IMG/VR virus record: IMGVR_UViG_3300037189_002681
Coordinates: 1 to 25,527 of that record
Origin: a virus
Strand: one strand, 5' to 3'
Length of the DNA stretch: 25,527 nt
This document shows positions 9,039-25,527 of the stretch, piece by piece. How positions within the stretch are numbered: position 1 is the first letter of the stretch; each line of letters opens with the position of its first letter. A program made the translations under genes and the position numbers. Below the pieces are notes generated by a model that did no database searches, was not told the DNA's origin, and was given only the letters and a program-made list of their open reading frames with translations.

Positions 9039-9113
9039 GCGCTTAAGAACCTGCGGAAGGTAAGGAGACTCTAAATCTCTGTTTGGTGGGTTCGACTCCC
9101 ACTAAGCGCACCA
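9039..9113 (+). tRNA. tRNA with anticodon CUA (amber suppressor type)
   Basis: A clear cloverleaf with encoded CCA. The acceptor stem GCGCTTA (9039-9045) pairs fully with TAAGCGC (9103-9109), then A73 and CCA (9111-9113). The T arm is GTGGG/CCCAC with loop TTCGACT. The anticodon stem GGAGA (9064-9068)/TCTCT (9076-9080) encloses CTCTAAA, with U33 and anticodon CTA at 9071-9073, which reads UAG. The variable loop is 5 bases, so it is not a class II tRNA. The D arm is weak (three pairs, ACC/GGT, loop TGCGGAA with GG), and positions 8 and 14 are A and U rather than the usual U and A. Amino-acid identity cannot be told; G1-C72 with A73 does not fit E. coli tRNA-Gln. Confidence 0.9.
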
Positions 9114-11261: not shown

Positions 11262-11289
11262 ATACAATGTGAACTTAAAGGAGAAAAAA

Positions 11290-11865
11290 ATGTCACAACA
11301 ATAGATTGAATATGCTTGCAGAGATGTAGTTTTCCATTTCAACAAGAAACACTTAGAAGACGAGACCATTCCAATGTGGGTCTTAAAATTTCATGGAGAG
11401 ACGTTATACGTCAATCATGTAGACTGTCAGCTATCCTGGAGTACTAAGGAAACGCCTGATAACAGTCATACCAAAGGTAGCATCAAAGTTAAAAACGCAT
11501 TGTTGCGTATTAGTGATAGCAACGAAGCTACACTCACAGAACTTACTATCTACGATAAGTTCCGTTTAAGAAATCAAAAGCTAGGCATAGTTCGCATCAT
11601 GGCTCCGTATGGCGGTGCCATGCACAAGGCTTTATTGGCTAATGAATACAAACATGCACCGATTAAAACTATTCGAGGCGCCTGTTCTAGTTCATTCATT
11701 GTGTGTGACTTGCTTAGTAAGAATGAAGTGTTACTGGCTAAGATCAAATATGTCGACTGGCGCGAGCTTAAACCCAACGAAGGCTATTACCAGGATTACG
11801 ATAACTTTAAAGGAGACATCCCAGTGGATTATGGACATCCTAGTACCCCATATGAATACAGTTAA
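11290..11865 (+). CDS. Hypothetical protein with in-frame amber codon (TAG at codon 5), candidate recoded gene
   Basis: ATG 11290 follows a strong SD (AAAGGAG, 11278-11283) at the right distance. Translation runs M-S-Q-Q, then TAG (11302-11304), then IEYACRDVVFHFNKKHLEDETIP straight into the open frame whose first ATG is 11374. With the amber read through, the product has 191 residues. Without it, translation would need a start at 11374, which has no convincing SD. The codon before the TAG is CAA, and CAG is one mutation from TAG, so Gln is a natural candidate. The phage carries a CUA tRNA 2.2 kb upstream. No domain is recognised. It could also be a sequencing error or a recent nonsense mutation. 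Confidence 0.82.
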
Positions 11866-19134: not shown

Positions 19135-19584
19135 ATGGTGAAAAAGTTAATATTCTGCTTGTTAATCTGCCCGGCAATAGCAATGGCAGCACCTCTCCAA
19201 GACTATCAATTTAAGAGCCCAAGCTTCAATGGCAGTGGATATAGCAGTCATGTGCTTACTATAGAAAATCAAGAATTTACACGTAGGGCGCAGTTACAAA
19301 AAGATATTCAAGCGGCATTAGACAAAGCAAAAGCAGATGCATCTAATACCAACATAGCCAAGTTCATGAACAACTTGGAGTCACGTATATACGCACAGAT
19401 TAGCCAAAATTTAGCTACTGCTATGTTTGCTAATGGTGGCACAAATTCAGGCACACTAAATTTTGAAGGTAATACTATATTCTGGACTAAGGATAGTTCT
19501 AGCGTTACCTTACAAGTTACAGACAGTGTCGGCAATCAGACTACTGTAGTTGTCCCATTAGGACAATTCCAGTTTGGAAACTAA
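19135..19584 (+). CDS. csgF: CsgF-like curli assembly factor
   Basis: A 149-residue protein with a Sec signal peptide (MVKKLIFCLLICPAIAMA, cleavage near AMA-APL). The mature N-terminus LQDYQFKSPSFNGSG matches CsgF, whose start (F.F.NP.FGG) inserts into the CsgG pore. The C-terminal region (TNSGTLNFEGNTIFWTKDSSSVTLQVTD) keeps the beta-rich end. CsgF sits at the outer membrane face and helps the nucleator attach. SD GGGAG (19124-19128). It is 1 base before CsgG, the same pair as in bacterial curli operons. No CsgE, CsgC or CsgD is seen. Confidence 0.92.
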   Translation: MVKKLIFCLLICPAIAMAAPLQDYQFKSPSFNGSGYSSHVLTIENQEFTRRAQLQKDIQAALDKAKADASNTNIAKFMNNLESRIYAQISQNLATAMFANGGTNSGTLNFEGNTIFWTKDSSSVTLQVTDSVGNQTTVVVPLGQFQFGN

Positions 19585-19585
19585 T

Positions 19586-20863
19586 ATGAAGAATGTATTA
19601 CTACCGACATTAATTGCTTTAAGCCTTGCTGGGTGTGCGTCAATCCAGAGTACCGGATTGACTGAGACTAAACCAGAAGTAACTAAAGTTATGATGCAGA
19701 AGGAGTTTGATACTATACCTCCTCCATCCAGTAACAAGCCAGTTAGTGTAGCAGTATACAGTTTTATGGACAAGACAGGACAGCGCAGGCCGCAAGCTAA
19801 TGTGGCAAGTTTAAGTACTGCGGTTACTCAAGGTGCAGAAGCATTCCTTATCAAAGCATTGCAGGATGTAGGTAAAGGTACATGGTTCGATGTTGTAGAG
19901 CGTGTTGGTATCGACAACCTGACCAAGGAGCGTACAATCATACGCCAGATGCGCGAAGCATATGAAGGTGCTAATGCAAAACCTTTGATGCCTATGCAGT
20001 TTGCTGGATTGATTATGGAAGGTGGAATAGTAGGCTACGATACTAGCACGACTAGCGGCGGCGCTGGCGCAAGAATATTTGGAATAGGATCACAGACACA
20101 ATGGAGCACTGATACAGTTACGGTGAGTCTACGTGCAGTCAGTGTAAACACAGGTAAAGTCTTGGCAAGTGTTACTGTACAGAAAACTATAATGAGTACA
20201 GCAGACAGTGCCACAGCATTGAAATTCTTTGATGCTGGTACGAAGAGTTTTGAAGCAGAAGCAGGCTTAACTATCAATGAGCCAGGTACTTATGCTGTTA
20301 AATCAGCAGTAGAAATGGCAGTGGTAGAATTAATCAAAGAAGGCGCAAAGAAAGGCATATGGGATTTTAAGTACCCTATGGTTGAAGCTAAGAGATACTT
20401 GTTGGGCGGCGGAGGTTTTGAACCCGAGCCTAAGAAAGTAGAAGCTCCTGTAGAAGTTAAACAAGAGGAGAAGAAAGATGTCGTGGTTCAATCACAAACC
20501 CCCGAAACACCCGCCCCAACCCCCGCACCTGACACCGCACCACAACAGTCCAGCGACAGTGAAGATACTAAAAGAGACGAAGGAAAGGGTGAGGCCAGCA
20601 AGGCAGAAGAAAAAATAGTAAAACCAGCGGCAAAAGCAGAAGTAAAACCAATAGCACCAAGGCCGCTGTTTGGACAACGTAAATTAAAAGAAGATGCATA
20701 CTTGTTTACAGAAGCTGACACGGCAAGTACTAAGAAATGGCTCTTCAAGAAAGGCACAGAAGTTAAAGTTGTACAGCCAGGGAGTGAAGGTTGGCTGAGA
20801 GTCGTAGACGGCGAAAACAAAGGCGGATGGATTCGCACAGAGGTATTAGAGCAGTTAAAATAA
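19586..20863 (+). CDS. csgG: CsgG curli secretion channel with C-terminal SH3 domain
   Basis: A 425-residue protein starting at ATG 19586; a TTG at 19574 is rejected because the lipoprotein signal peptide begins at 19586. The lipobox LAGC has Cys17, so the protein is an outer membrane lipoprotein. Residues ~17-270 match CsgG (VAVYSFMDKTGQRRP, SLSTAVTQGAEAFLIKAL, FDVVERVGIDNLTKERTIIRQMREAY). E. coli CsgG stops at 277 residues; here an E/K/P-rich linker (~275-355) leads to a bacterial SH3-like domain (~360-425), ending WLRVVDGENKGGWIRTEVLEQL. The pore exports curlin subunits; the SH3 part would lie in the periplasm, where such domains often bind peptidoglycan (inference). Confidence 0.92.
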   Translation: MKNVLLPTLIALSLAGCASIQSTGLTETKPEVTKVMMQKEFDTIPPPSSNKPVSVAVYSFMDKTGQRRPQANVASLSTAVTQGAEAFLIKALQDVGKGTWFDVVERVGIDNLTKERTIIRQMREAYEGANAKPLMPMQFAGLIMEGGIVGYDTSTTSGGAGARIFGIGSQTQWSTDTVTVSLRAVSVNTGKVLASVTVQKTIMSTADSATALKFFDAGTKSFEAEAGLTINEPGTYAVKSAVEMAVVELIKEGAKKGIWDFKYPMVEAKRYLLGGGGFEPEPKKVEAPVEVKQEEKKDVVVQSQTPETPAPTPAPDTAPQQSSDSEDTKRDEGKGEASKAEEKIVKPAAKAEVKPIAPRPLFGQRKLKEDAYLFTEADTASTKKWLFKKGTEVKVVQPGSEGWLRVVDGENKGGWIRTEVLEQLK

Positions 20864-20884
20864 AGTAGTACAATAACAATTAAC

Positions 20885-20926
20885 GGGGCCCAGCCCCAAG
20901 GAGCGTATTGCCTTAAGAAAGCAATA
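20885..20926 (+). promoter_or_regulatory. Two stem-loops flanking the SD of the first curlin gene
   Basis: GGGGC (20885-20889) pairs with GCCCC (20893-20897). The SD AAGGAG (20898-20903) follows. Then TATTGC (20906-20911) pairs with GCAATA (20921-20926). The SD is 33 bases from the ATG at 20937, but the second stem-loop would bring it to an effective ~12. T4 genes 25 and 38 use hairpins of this type. Confidence 0.5.
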
Positions 20927-20936
20927 TTGGAATCAT

Positions 20937-21839
20937 ATGGAACAGAGCATCAAAGGCGATGGTAAGTTGTCGAGAAAATTACTTACAATACTGATTTCAA
21001 CTGCAATGTTGACATCGGGAGGCTTTGCTATGGCCGCGGACAATAGCATATTCATCGATCAAGCAGGTGATAATAACCAAATAGTAGTAAATCAGAAAGG
21101 TAGCGGCAACGCTATTGGCGGCACTAACGGGATACCTAGTGCTAGCAACAGAGCAGGAATTAATGGTACTAGCAACGGTGTAGTGATCGATCAAGTGGGT
21201 ACAAGCAACAAGCTGGCACTCAGTTTTAATAACGATGACGGTGGCCCTAGCTCAGGAAGGACTATGACATTTCCAGCTAATCCTTATACTGGTGTTGTAG
21301 GTAGCACTTCGGCACCATTAAGTTTCTTGTATCAGATAGAAGGTTCTAACAACGCAGGCACGATTAACGTAGGAAATCCTAATTCAAAATTAACTAATAC
21401 ACAAGTGCAAGTTAATGGCAATGGTAGCAACAACGCTATCGGTATCAATGTACAAACTGGTAACGATAATACTGTGATTGCTACACTAGGCAGTGGGTTT
21501 GGATCTGGTACTAGTGGCGCTGTAGACAACAGTAATATCACTTCAGTAGTTAATGGTACTGGCAACACTACCGGTATCAATCTAACAGCAAATTCTAACA
21601 CAGTAAGTACACAGCAAACAGGCGATTATAACAGTATTAGTATTGCCGCATCAGGAGTTAGTAATACGTTCAATGTAGCACAGGACAGCACTGCTGTAAC
21701 TGGACATACATTCGCGGCTAACGTAACTGGGTCTGGCAATGATATTGGTGTTGTACAGGCAGGAATAGCAAATAGCACTATTAACGTGAATGTTGCAGGT
21801 AGCAACAACACATTAAGATTAAACAGTAATAAGCCTTAA
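20937..21839 (+). CDS. Curlin-repeat protein 1
   Basis: A 300-residue exported protein. The signal peptide is about residues 12-34 (LLTILISTAMLTSGGFAMA). The mature protein has curlin-like repeats of about 20-25 residues of the form xxxxQxGxxNxxxxxQxG: IFIDQAGDNNQIVVNQKGSGNA, GVVIDQVGTSNKLAL, and more degenerate ones with GSNNA, GNDNT, GTGNTT and TGDYNSI. The Asn/Gln/Gly/Ser ladder with alternating Ile/Val is the amyloid core of CsgA/CsgB. No cysteines. It follows CsgG and is the probable secreted fibre subunit or nucleator; which of the two cannot be told. Confidence 0.9.
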   Translation: MEQSIKGDGKLSRKLLTILISTAMLTSGGFAMAADNSIFIDQAGDNNQIVVNQKGSGNAIGGTNGIPSASNRAGINGTSNGVVIDQVGTSNKLALSFNNDDGGPSSGRTMTFPANPYTGVVGSTSAPLSFLYQIEGSNNAGTINVGNPNSKLTNTQVQVNGNGSNNAIGINVQTGNDNTVIATLGSGFGSGTSGAVDNSNITSVVNGTGNTTGINLTANSNTVSTQQTGDYNSISIAASGVSNTFNVAQDSTAVTGHTFAANVTGSGNDIGVVQAGIANSTINVNVAGSNNTLRLNSNKP

Positions 21840-21840
21840 T

Positions 21841-22629
21841 ATGTTAAAACGCATCATAGCATCACTACTATGTATTGGTGCTGTTGAAGCTTATGCGGCA
21901 GATAACAGCACCTACATAGACCAATCGGGCGATAACGCAACAGTGTTAATCGTACAGGATGGTGCCGGTAATCGAGTTCGGGGATTACCAGGCAGTGGAA
22001 CTAGTGATGAAACCCCGGCTATAATGTATGGAGATAGTAACCAGATAACTATCAGCCAAGTGGGTTCAGGCAACACGATGAAATTTGGTGCTCAGACAAA
22101 ATTGCCATCGGAATTAGACATTGCTGGATACAGTGGTAATATCTTTTACTACAACGTAAAAGGTAATAGTAATAATGCCGTCATAGATAGCAATGGCAAT
22201 GGCAAAGATATCAGCAAAGGCAACAGCATCATACTAACACAGACCGGTAATGGCAACAACGCTGAAGTTAAGATGACGGGTACTGCTAATAATCTAACAG
22301 CTACTACCAGCGGCGGTAACTCTAACGGAGTTATTTCGTTAACCGCAGGAGATAGAAATTTACAGCAAATCACAGTATCTAGCGGTAGTAATAATACAGT
22401 TAACATATCCCAAACAGGAAACAATAACTCAGTAATAGGAACAGCAGTAGGTTCTGGAAACAATGTAAACATGTCTCAAGACGGTTTTGGACACACTGCT
22501 ACATTTGATATCATAGGAAATTCTAATACCGTGAAGACTTCACAGCTGGGTATTGGAGATGTTACACCTTTGAACATAGTTATGAAGGGCAGTAACAACG
22601 TCATAGTTGTAGCCAACGGAGGCAAATAA
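21841..22629 (+). CDS. Curlin-repeat protein 2
   Basis: A 262-residue exported protein with signal peptide MLKRIIASLLCIGAVEAYA (cleavage ~20). The first repeat STYIDQSGDNATVLIVQDGAGN and later ones (NSIILTQTGNGNNAEVKMTG, NNTVNISQTGNNNSVIGTAVG, NNVNMSQDGFGHTATFDIIG, NSNTVKTSQLGIG) give a regular Q-G-N ladder, like curlin 1 but more regular, at residues ~130-255. It starts 2 bases after the curlin 1 stop, with no good SD, so it depends on coupling. It overlaps the FecR-domain gene by 1 base (TAATG). Confidence 0.9.
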   Translation: MLKRIIASLLCIGAVEAYAADNSTYIDQSGDNATVLIVQDGAGNRVRGLPGSGTSDETPAIMYGDSNQITISQVGSGNTMKFGAQTKLPSELDIAGYSGNIFYYNVKGNSNNAVIDSNGNGKDISKGNSIILTQTGNGNNAEVKMTGTANNLTATTSGGNSNGVISLTAGDRNLQQITVSSGSNNTVNISQTGNNNSVIGTAVGSGNNVNMSQDGFGHTATFDIIGNSNTVKTSQLGIGDVTPLNIVMKGSNNVIVVANGGK

Positions 22630-23768
22630 TGAGAAGTCTAGCAGTTTGCCTTATAATACTATGCTCACCTGCCTATGCAGAAATTGGATCTGTGACAGAA
22701 CAGCTAAATTCCGTTCCCGTGATACAGAGACAAAATCAAACACTACAAGCTCCTACCGGAACTAAAGTTGAGATGATGGATGCTGTTCGCACTACACAGG
22801 GTAAGATTGGTATTACGTTCGAAGATAAGAGCCGTGTGCAGGTTAACGAAAACAGTAAACTTGTCATCGATGATTTTGTGTACAGTCCTAAAAACAAAGC
22901 AGGTCAAGCGGCAATGAAAGTAGCATATGGTACTGTTAGATTCGCTAGCGGAGATATAGCACATAACAATAAAGACAAAGTGGCTATCAATACACCTAGT
23001 GCTAGTATCAGTGTGCGCGGCACAGATTTTACAGCAACAGTAGATGAAACTGGAGCCAGCACTGTAGTTCTGTTACCCACTTGTCCAGGCTGGCGCGGCA
23101 GCAGAACTGCTACGGATATCGAACCCGATTGTACAGTAGGTGCTATTACAGTATCCAATGATGCAGGGTCTGTAGTATTGAATAAACCATTCCAAGCTAC
23201 TAGGGTTGAAAATAGAAGCGTACAGCCTAGTCCTCCTGTGATATTAAAACTTAGCGAATTTGCCATGAACAACATGTTAATTGTTGCTCCTCCTAGAGAA
23301 TTAGAAGCCAAACAAGATGACAATCGTAAGGAGATGAAAGGCATATTAGATGTTAACTTCTTGAAAGAAACAGGACTGGCTAATGCTCTGGATGCAGAAC
23401 AAAAAGACATGTTCGTTGACAAGTTGAGCCGTAATTTCCTAGATCAAGATTTTCTAGCCAATGTTCTAGATATCATTAATGCGCAGATGGCCGCGCAGGT
23501 TAATTTGCTGAACAGCACTAAATCAGGGCTGTTACCCGATTACAATGCTGTTACAGGAGTAGTAGCTGAAGTTGACGATACATCTGTTACACTGAGTCGT
23601 AGTGATGGTAGCAATAGACAAAGCATTACTACTCCTAAAAATCAAAACTCAACTCTAGTTCAGACGCAAGGAAGTATCGAAGTTAAAAACCGTGTAAATA
23701 ATGGTGGCGGTACAACTATCACAGTAGTACAAGACAATTCGGCAATAGTGACGGCTCCAAGAAAATGA
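22629..23768 (+). CDS. FecR-domain secreted protein in the curli operon
   Basis: A 379-residue protein with signal peptide (MRSLAVCLIILCSPAYA). Residues ~20-140 match the FecR beta-domain: VGSVTEQLNSV...GTKVEMMDAVRTTQGKIGITFEDKSRVQVNENSKLVIDDFVY, then AAMKVAYGTVRFASGDI and VAINTPSASISVRGTDF. Two cysteines (~150, ~168) and a helical region (~225-300), then a Thr/Ser/Asn-rich end (~305-379) follow. In the host, FecR domains sense or bind at the cell surface. Lying between curlins 2 and 3, it could anchor the fibre to the cell or chaperone subunits. It overlaps curlin 3 by 4 bases (ATGA). No cognate ECF sigma is seen. Confidence 0.85.
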   Translation: MRSLAVCLIILCSPAYAEIGSVTEQLNSVPVIQRQNQTLQAPTGTKVEMMDAVRTTQGKIGITFEDKSRVQVNENSKLVIDDFVYSPKNKAGQAAMKVAYGTVRFASGDIAHNNKDKVAINTPSASISVRGTDFTATVDETGASTVVLLPTCPGWRGSRTATDIEPDCTVGAITVSNDAGSVVLNKPFQATRVENRSVQPSPPVILKLSEFAMNNMLIVAPPRELEAKQDDNRKEMKGILDVNFLKETGLANALDAEQKDMFVDKLSRNFLDQDFLANVLDIINAQMAAQVNLLNSTKSGLLPDYNAVTGVVAEVDDTSVTLSRSDGSNRQSITTPKNQNSTLVQTQGSIEVKNRVNNGGGTTITVVQDNSAIVTAPRK

Positions 23769-24376
23769 AACTAATAGCAATATTCCTAATGATCATATCA
23801 CTAGCTGGGCTTAGATGCACTGATGTAAAAGCCCAATCTACTAGCGATAATACCATTTACATAGATCAAGTAGGAAGCAACAATTCTATCTCCATAGACC
23901 AAACAGGTAACGGACATTCTGCTACAGTTAGCCTGGGCAATAATAATGGTAGCAGTAATGTAGATTACACTACTATAGCTATAATACAACAAGGTGCTCC
24001 TAAGACTGCTAGTGTAGAAATTAAAGCAGGCAGTAACAATTCTGTAAGCATACAACAAGATGGTTCAGGTAATCATACTGCGGCTATTCAAAATCTAAAT
24101 GGTAGCGGTAATCAATTCAACATAACACAAAGTGGTAATGGTAAACATGAATTTACAGTAACTAATACTGCGGGCAGTACCAACGATGCTAATGTATTAA
24201 ACGCACAACAGACTGGCGGAGTTGGTGCTGAAAAAACATTTAATGTTTGGTTGAATGGTGCAACTGGAGCTAATATTTCTGTACAACAAACTAATCCCAC
24301 AACTGCCAGCCAAGGCAGTATGAGCATACAGTGTATGCCAGGCACATGTGGTAATTGGTCTTATATCCGTAATTAA
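23765..24376 (+). CDS. Curlin-repeat protein 3
   Basis: A 203-residue exported protein (signal peptide ~1-24, MKLIAIFLMIISLAGLRC...VKAQ; the LAGLRC does not form a clear lipobox). Curlin repeats: NTIYIDQVGSNNSISIDQTGNGHSA, SNVDYTTIAIIQQGAPKTASVEI, NSVSIQQDGSGNHTAAIQNL, and NQFNITQSGNGKHEFTVTN. The last ~50 residues are less regular and contain two cysteines (CMPGTC) near the C-terminus, which is unlike typical curlins; they may cap the fibre or form a surface loop. It ends the translationally coupled curlin2-FecR-curlin3 run. Confidence 0.9.
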   Translation: MKLIAIFLMIISLAGLRCTDVKAQSTSDNTIYIDQVGSNNSISIDQTGNGHSATVSLGNNNGSSNVDYTTIAIIQQGAPKTASVEIKAGSNNSVSIQQDGSGNHTAAIQNLNGSGNQFNITQSGNGKHEFTVTNTAGSTNDANVLNAQQTGGVGAEKTFNVWLNGATGANISVQQTNPTTASQGSMSIQCMPGTCGNWSYIRN

Positions 24377-24391
24377 ACACTAGGTTAAAGC

Positions 24392-24431
24392 CTCCGTTAC
24401 TAGTAGTAAATACTATTGGACTTAACGGGAG
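24392..24431 (+). promoter_or_regulatory. Hairpin with late-promoter-like AGTAAATA in the middle and SD in the 3' arm
   Basis: CTCCGTTA (24392-24399) pairs with TAACGG-G-AG (24423-24431, one bulge), which includes the SD GGGAG of the adhesin gene. An inner stem, TAGTA (24401-24405)/TACTA (24411-24415), surrounds part of AGTAAATA (24405-24412), a six-of-eight match to TATAAATA. Read-through RNA would hide the SD; RNA begun at ~24418 would not. Confidence 0.45.
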
Positions 24432-24437
24432 CGAACC

Positions 24438-25527
24438 ATGAAAGTTTTCAAACGCAATCTCTTGGCCACCGCCATGAGTATAATTTTTAGTACGTCTGCT
24501 ATAGCAGATGGTCTCGATCTAGGATTTACCACAAGTGGATTAACAGGTTGGACACTTAGCCCTAGTACTGGGGCACAATTACCAACACAATGGAATAGCC
24601 AAGGAAAAGGTGCTAACATTGTTAGTGCTATGACTAACTATACACCAGGTGGCGGACTAACATGGAACATCACACCATACAGTGGTGAATATATGGCTAG
24701 TTTACAACCGACAGGCAGTACTATGTATACTGCTATGGCTAGCAGTTTTGGACTAAGCACTAGTGATAAAGCATCTATACAAAGCTTCTTAGTAGCAAAA
24801 GCCGCTGGAGGACAAACTACTCCAACTAATGCGTCATATATGTACTACAGTGGATTAAATCTAACCGCAGGTACAAAATTTACCTTAGCTTGGAACTTCG
24901 TAGCAACAGACTACACACCTTGGAACGATACTAGTATCACATCTCTAGTAGCAACAACTGGTGGCGCGACGCCTAAGATTAACGGATATACTCAGAATTA
25001 TAGTGTATTAGGTGCTATTAACACAGGCGCAGGTAACTGGTCAACAGGCAGTTATGGGTCAACAGGTTGGCAAGTGGCGTCTTATGAAGTAACAGCAGAC
25101 GGCACTTACACTTTAGGTATTGGTGACTTTAACCTAGGTGACACGGCCCTAAGTCCGATCTTATTAGTCAGTGGAGCACCAGGCGTTACATTGAAGAACG
25201 GTGTAGCATTTGGGCCTATCACTTCTAACGATCCTACGATACAAGCAGCCGTAGATGCAGTAGTAACACCAACACCTACTCCGACCCCTACTCCGAGCGG
25301 TCCTATAGATGTTACTAATACATCTGGAACAACAGCTACCAATCCAAGTGGAACTACAGTATTAACAGTTACCAATGCTGGTACATATACTAATGCGGGT
25401 ACTGCTGGCAACGTAGCTAACACTGGTATTTTTAACAACAGTGGAACAGCAGGTGCTATCACTAACACCAGTGGTACATTTACTAACACAGGAACAACGG
25501 GCACAGTAACTAACGCTGGAACATTTA
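24438..25527 (+). CDS. Secreted repeat adhesin-like protein (3' truncated by window)
   Basis: The gene opens at ATG 24438 (SD GGGAG at 24427-24431) and has no stop through base 25527, so at least 363 residues are encoded. Residues 1-24 are a Sec signal peptide (KVFKRNLLATAMSIIFSTSAIA). Residues ~25-275 form a beta-rich domain (LGFTTSGLTGWTLS...NLTAGTKFTLAWNFVATDY) like jelly-roll lectin or carbohydrate-binding modules. A Thr-Pro linker (TPTPTPTPTPSGP) follows. From ~295 on there are tandem ~20-residue repeats with the theme TNxGTxTNxGT, as in beta-helical adhesins or hemagglutinins. It follows the curli cluster and could be the attached adhesin, but the link is positional only. Confidence 0.85.
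   Translation, partial: MKVFKRNLLATAMSIIFSTSAIADGLDLGFTTSGLTGWTLSPSTGAQLPTQWNSQGKGANIVSAMTNYTPGGGLTWNITPYSGEYMASLQPTGSTMYTAMASSFGLSTSDKASIQSFLVAKAAGGQTTPTNASYMYYSGLNLTAGTKFTLAWNFVATDYTPWNDTSITSLVATTGGATPKINGYTQNYSVLGAINTGAGNWSTGSYGSTGWQVASYEVTADGTYTLGIGDFNLGDTALSPILLVSGAPGVTLKNGVAFGPITSNDPTIQAAVDAVVTPTPTPTPTPSGPIDVTNTSGTTATNPSGTTVLTVTNAGTYTNAGTAGNVANTGIFNNSGTAGAITNTSGTFTNTGTTGTVTNAGTF

Follow-up and report, generated by a model that had tools for sequence, protein, structure and literature searches.

An early in-frame stop codon controls gene expression in bacterial prfB, where a UGA passed by a +1 frameshift senses RF2. In phages that use genetic code 15 (crAss-like and Lak phages; PMC9523058, PMC10607447), as in the case proposed below, a phage suppressor tRNA reads UAG inside genes. 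Orphan suppressor tRNAs with a CUA or UCA anticodon have also been reported from the phages XacN1 (PMC5852040), Summit (PMC9022506), and Atu_ph07 (UCA, opal; PMC6102473). The authors describing XacN1 and Summit searched for genes extended by readthrough at their 3' ends without identifying a target, and those describing Atu_ph07 merely suggested genes ending in UGA as targets. Man-made counterparts include a synthetic feed-forward loop based on a suppressor tRNA (PMC7969014) and circuits engineered with suppressor tRNAs (PMC13276491).

Here, we describe a locus in the virus record IMGVR_UViG_3300037189_002681. The whole stretch of DNA that was analyzed (25,527 nucleotides) is referred to as the window. 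In the window, an amber codon interrupts the beginning of an otherwise open gene, designated gene X, where the strand reads TTAAAGGAGAAAAAA ATG TCA CAA CAA TAG ATT GAA TAT. The relevant features are as follows.

9039 to 9113, + strand: suppressor tRNA gene with anticodon CUA and an encoded CCA (G1-C72, A73)
11277 to 11283, + strand: Shine-Dalgarno (SD) sequence AAAGGAG, 6 nt 5' of ATG 11290
11290 to 11301, + strand: gene X leader, start codon plus three codons (ATG TCA CAA CAA), with equivalents in relatives
11302 to 11304, + strand: in-frame amber TAG, codon 5 of the gene X frame, found in 36/36 first-round relatives and 58 distinct X loci
11305 to 11865, + strand: gene X, the open frame after the TAG, 186 codons plus TAA (11863 to 11865)
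about 11305 to 11544, + strand: conserved N-domain of gene X, an ~80-aa stand-alone protein in several relatives
11374 to 11376, + strand: first in-frame start codon (ATG) downstream of the TAG, not the true start of gene X

The initial annotation of the window had called attention to a TAG at codon 5 of a well-led gene, and this description holds: ATG 11290 is followed by the TAG at 11302 to 11304 and by 186 open codons. The strong SD that it placed before ATG 11290 is present as well, starting at 11277 and not at 11278 as had been given. The CUA tRNA gene, on the same strand as gene X, is the only tRNA gene in the window. ARAGORN names it tRNA-Pyl; a phage-encoded pyrrolysine system was rejected, with PylS above the TIGR02367 cutoff in 0 of 18 phage records. 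A leader-pattern scan of the window revealed no second gene in which an SD-led start is soon interrupted by TAG and a long ORF continues behind it.

Homolog alignment, set beforehand as the test of the early amber, showed the TAG to be conserved. Using the post-TAG X protein as the query, we recovered 36 first-round loci from IMG/VR (49 to 100% identical), and SD-ATG-(1 to 8 codons)-TAG precedes the X protein in all 36. A second scan, seeded with the X homolog of Rhizobium phage RHph_I1_18, yielded 62 loci (partly first-round contigs again), the majority of which were amber-led at X. With duplicates removed, there were 58 distinct TAG-led leaders for X and 34 for a Pth2-like gene that precedes X in an operon. 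When 0.97 Mb of loci was scanned for the pattern SD-ATG-(1 to 10 codons)-stop-long ORF, the stop was TAG in 86 cases, TGA in 4, and TAA in 3; the TAA and TGA counts serve as an internal control because the scanned loci had been picked by X homology. The TAG is preceded by 28 different leader strings, which encode 1 to 9 variable residues, so it is the stop that is conserved and not the leader peptide. At most loci, the leader is 2 to 5 codons long. The X protein had no match when compared with plasmids. Directly before gated X at three loci (L037:5311, L071:3119, and L072:3304) lies a GIY-YIG/NUMOD3 homing-endonuclease-like ORF in which the amber leader is repeated (ATG TCG/GCA TAG ATT GAA TAT).

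Among wider relatives, the stop leads either X or the upstream Pth2-like gene of the same operon. Scoring left 27 X copies without a leading stop, of which 25 were in Pth2-like/X operon loci, the exceptions being L044, in which X is amber-led with an ATG shortly after the TAG, and L179, an incomplete locus. At the operon loci, the upstream Pth2-like gene was stop-led wherever the operon start was visible. We rejected the view of L080-type loci as TAG-free X without tRNA-CUA: their upstream Pth2-like genes are gated (ATG ACT TAG ATT AAC, ATG AAG TAG, and ATG ACA CAT TAG), and a tRNA-CUA without an encoded CCA lies about 60 to 260 nt upstream of the amber-led gene. The TAG has been lost from X in L070, an X sister, where the upstream Pth2-like gene reads ATG GCA TAG. 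In Sinorhizobium phage Phosso the Pth2-like leader is ATG AAG TAT TAG and X lies further downstream, and metagenomic relatives are arranged likewise. At L077, both genes are amber-led. No early stop was found in the Pth2-like genes of Lak-A1 and L183 (IMGVR_UViG_3300028797_000137) or in the canonical Pth2 genes of XacN1, RAS14, SCTP-2, and phiM12, which have ordinary starts; in Lak-A1, a code 15 phage, this is expected where TAG is already a sense codon. In L183, a UCA-anticodon tRNA is located ~150 nt downstream of the Pth2-like gene.

The matching tRNA usually lies close to the gated gene. A tRNA-CUA occurs in the examined flank of 50 of the 58 TAG-led X loci, at a median distance of 590 nt. 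It was not found in the examined flank at 8 X and 11 Pth2-like TAG-led loci, some of which are incomplete, and some of the loci without a flanking copy have a tRNA-CUA elsewhere on the contig. The 68 distinct suppressor tRNAs differ by lineage in acceptor stem and discriminator base, with most X-clade members carrying GCG..CGC-A73 and others differing, but all retain a suppressor anticodon. This variability is what would be expected if any amino acid sufficed at the gate; the sequences did not point to one amino-acid identity for these tRNAs.

In two phages, Atu_ph07 and the metagenomic L160, the leader stop is TGA. No tRNA-CUA was found in either, and both have a tRNA-UCA. The Pth2-like gene of Atu_ph07 begins ATG ATT GGC GAA CAC TTT TGA ATT (its Phosso counterpart has TAG), with the tRNA-UCA at 430713 to 430787; CUA-like matches there are other tRNAs. 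The L160 leader reads ATG AAA CAT CTC GAT CAT AGG TGA GTG, the tRNA-UCA is on the same contig, and the sole CUA-like match is tRNA-Arg(UCU); its sister L159 has a TAG leader and a tRNA-CUA. Stop codon and anticodon thus appear to change together (TAG/CUA and TGA/UCA), as judged from a small sample of two matched switches. Several tRNA genes of Atu_ph07 (L145, L148), namely, those for Tyr, Ser or similar, and Lys, contain intron-like anticodon-loop insertions of 26 to 48 nt. Scans of XacN1, in which a tRNA-CUA is present, and of Stenotrophomonas phage DLP_5 revealed no clear stop-led gene in the former and no convincing gated long ORF in either. DLP_5 (NC_042082, L218:1939) does contain an SD-led 8-codon mini-ORF (ATG AAG TAG GTC TAC AAG CCG CCC TAA) ~400 nt upstream of its tRNA-Sup-CTA, a single case that is possibly a leader-peptide version of the gate.

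The pattern is also present in cultured phages, including RHph_I1_18, Phosso, Tenacibaculum phage pT24, and mycobacteriophages I3, LRRHood, Cane17, and Myrna. In RHph_I1_18, gene X (ATG AGT GAG TTC ATG TAG AAC GAA TCG...) is unannotated, and the tRNA-CUA begins shortly 3' of it. The pT24 Pth2-like leader is ATG AAA TAG, in a genome with an annotated tRNA-Sup. Of 193 Mycobacterium phage records listed by tblastn as having the Pth2-like gene, we inspected seven. The leader is ATG TAG GTG ACA in I3, LRRHood, Blubba, and Cane17 and GTG TAG GTG in Myrna, Phabba, and ScoobyDoobyDoo, and a tRNA-CUA lies just downstream of the gene in all seven. The start codon-TAG-GTG string is located ~6 nt past a -10-like box (L137, L185, L186, L190, and L198 to L200), suggesting, from this promoter-like element, that the mRNAs may be leaderless. 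In every inspected mycobacteriophage of the gated type, the annotated start is the GTG after the TAG, and the true start probably lies two codons earlier. The gated genes of Phosso and pT24 are likewise annotated with a late start. If the reading proposed below is true, stop-led genes are being missed (RHph_I1_18) or given a wrong start. The mycobacteriophage Pth2-like protein, used as a query against genome contigs, gave no match. Amber-led Pth2-like genes were also found in the huge uncultured phages LR756500, LR756501, LR756502, LR756504, and LR745206. The gene in LR756501 (L135) contains a second in-frame TAG 34 codons farther on, a hint that this phage (735 kb) may decode TAG more widely.

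The Pth2-like gene matched PF01981 in Phosso (3e-20) and L080 (2.5e-5), with a value below the Pfam cutoff in L070 (0.016), and its profile matched the archaeal Pth2 structure PDB 2zv3 (1.5e-8). In the clade-A profile, the active-site loop MGKGK is shorter; the Phosso type retains AGKLASQ. Gene X could be assigned to no family in Pfam, PHROG, NCBIfam, or PDB, including any PTH2 profile, and its predicted model, although confident (pLDDT, 86), matched no PDB fold below an E value of 0.001. Its C-terminal domain is variable. Elsewhere in the window, positions 19135 to 25526 hold a curli-like cluster with a CsgG homolog (19574), a curlin-repeat protein (20937), and a FecR-like protein (22629), near a DnaK gene (12869); such curli-like cargo is unusual in a phage.

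Whether the codons behind the TAG are translated was evaluated for 14 codons from the HFNK motif, upstream of the window's first post-TAG ATG, in 64 sequences. Per codon, the sequences showed 0.18 differences at the first position, 0.14 at the second, and 0.46 at the third. This third-position excess indicates protein-coding selection, so that translation either passes through the TAG or starts right behind it. The residues between the TAG and ATG 11374 are conserved, which argues against ATG 11374 as the true start, and homologs beginning there, named in the initial annotation as the refuting case, were not seen. As in programmed stop-codon readthrough, the in-frame stop is conserved and coding selection continues downstream of it. 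The frame is the same before and after the stop, with no prfB-type frameshift. A functional short product combined with a leaky stop read by ordinary tRNAs does not fit, given that the leader residues vary and that the phages encode a cognate tRNA of their own for this stop.

If the upstream ATG-TAG were noise, a start behind it, either at ATT as a non-AUG codon or at a later ATG or GTG, would account for the codon following the TAG being ATT, ATC, or ATA in 36, 8, and 2 of the 64 sequences and for the use of the GTG behind the TAG in mycobacteriophage annotations. We consider it highly improbable. Elsewhere that codon is ACT, AAA, GTA, GTC, GTT, or AAC, so a non-AUG start at this position does not suit all loci, and ATT was ruled out as the start codon; SD spacing fits the ATG before the TAG, coding is conserved 5' of the first ATG, and TAG conservation and the stop/anticodon switches would be left unexplained. 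Minigenes such as those of lambda bar act by termination or peptidyl-tRNA drop-off. Very short leaders and strong SDs would suit an attenuator of this kind, with reinitiation downstream and an incidental tRNA-CUA, but the preference for TAG over TAA and TGA, the occurrence of TGA solely alongside tRNA-UCA, and the lack of a start codon close behind the stop at most loci make it quite improbable. Sequencing error or a pseudogene, for which the stop codon itself is the only argument, has a negligible likelihood, since some 90 distinct loci of varied origin, cultured phages among them, have the stop at the equivalent place.

The initial annotation had also raised amber reassignment, which found no support. 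A phage-encoded CUA tRNA is indeed present, as in code 15 phages, and 0 of the 27 long ORFs in the window end in TAG. However, TAG still terminates ORFs in RHph_I1_18 (12/164), in sampled Phosso (23/198), and across the loci (63/753), so that neither TAG avoidance as a terminator nor many genes with in-frame TAG were found; RHph_I1_18 has only one credible amber-led gene, and the code 15 phage Lak-A1 lacks the gate. Genome-wide reassignment is thus extremely improbable and was rejected.

The best-supported reading is the one that the initial annotation had proposed, namely, that gene X is conditional on suppressor supply. Given the near-invariant leader stop and the usually nearby matching tRNA, the gene is probably made only with a working phage suppressor tRNA, and its dependence on readthrough is very likely. 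More broadly, we propose, with a probability of about 0.82, a suppressor-tRNA gate in which the phage tRNA-CUA would be a dedicated trans-acting switch for a small translation-related operon. Ribosomes would load at the strong SD, initiate at ATG 11290 (or its equivalents), and reach the UAG after 1 to 9 codons. Where the suppressor tRNA is missing, host RF1 would terminate at the UAG and gene X would be off; once the phage tRNA-CUA is transcribed, matured, and charged, the UAG would be read, some amino acid would be inserted near the N terminus, and X would be made. The same gate would act on X alone or on the Pth2-like gene as the first gene of the Pth2-like/X operon. The evidence for the gate comes from comparison of genomes, in the form of the conserved leader stop, coding selection downstream, linkage to the matching tRNA, and the two co-switches, from which we infer tRNA charging and production of the protein by readthrough.

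As to purpose, we tentatively favor coupling to the phage's own tRNA supply: phages with private tRNAs would make the operon, as a support for translation, only when those tRNAs have become functional. A possible requirement for rescue factors during tRNA array expression is noted in PMC5966550. The main rival on this point, which leaves the gate itself unchanged, is a prfB-like negative-feedback sensor in which the early UAG gauges tRNA-CUA against RF1 and the Pth2-like/X products lower suppression or clear the peptidyl-tRNAs that arise from it. That the gated gene is Pth2-like in many lineages would fit, as would the release-factor genes of some gated phages, which suggest that these phages manage stop decoding themselves. 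We regard the sensor as doubtful, as X is often gated alone and there is no sign that the X or Pth2-like product acts on suppression.

RF1-type release-factor genes (VPPTE/IPPTE, PF00472 plus PCRF) in L219, L221, L222, and L223, which are the phage contigs of L080, L066, L046, and LR756501, themselves have in-frame TGA codons in PCRF (codons 53, 35, 37, and 38 plus 51, respectively), and the frame is coding before and after them. No tRNA-UCA turned up in these four records in a pattern scan. These genes possibly represent a second class of stop-gated gene.

The suppressor-tRNA gate resembles prfB in that a near-start stop turns decoding competition into gene control. It differs in mechanism: prfB uses a +1 frameshift and no dedicated tRNA, whereas gene X has a continuous frame and an encoded cognate suppressor tRNA. 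In code 15 phages TAG is sense in many genes, whereas in gated phages it remains a stop, and recoding is confined to the leader of a single small operon; if the reading is true, the gate may be a stepping stone toward whole-genome stop reassignment in phages. In contrast to the gene ends considered for XacN1, Summit, and Atu_ph07, the stop targeted here is close to the beginning of the gene, and the target in Atu_ph07 would be the Pth2-like gene. Many orphan phage suppressor tRNAs would thereby be explained, and those left without a target (PMC5852040, PMC9022506) gain a specific, testable one. The predicted target can be checked in cultured phages, namely, I3 or LRRHood (Mycobacterium smegmatis), Phosso, and pT24. 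In mycobacteriophage tRNA arrays (PMC5966550), the same Pth2-like gene stands beside an array that includes a CUA tRNA; the accessible part of that paper does not describe an amber ahead of the annotated start or its link to the tRNA. Searches of an open-access full-text library revealed no description of such a gate and no named target for phage suppressor tRNAs, and novelty is provisional within that scope. The gate seems to be an on-switch made out of the genetic code and, as such, undescribed in nature. There is a good chance that it is a natural, ancient device of phages of several bacterial phyla, in which a suppressor tRNA licenses a single stop-led operon and stop and anticodon coevolve. 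As far as the accessible parts of PMC7969014 and PMC13276491 show, the synthetic circuits combine, as here, an amber-led gene and a coencoded suppressor tRNA into low-leak AND logic. Those circuits are man-made, whereas the phage gate is natural and widespread; if the reading is true, a genetic-code element private to the phage would control a gene, as the natural counterpart to engineered suppressor-tRNA logic gates.
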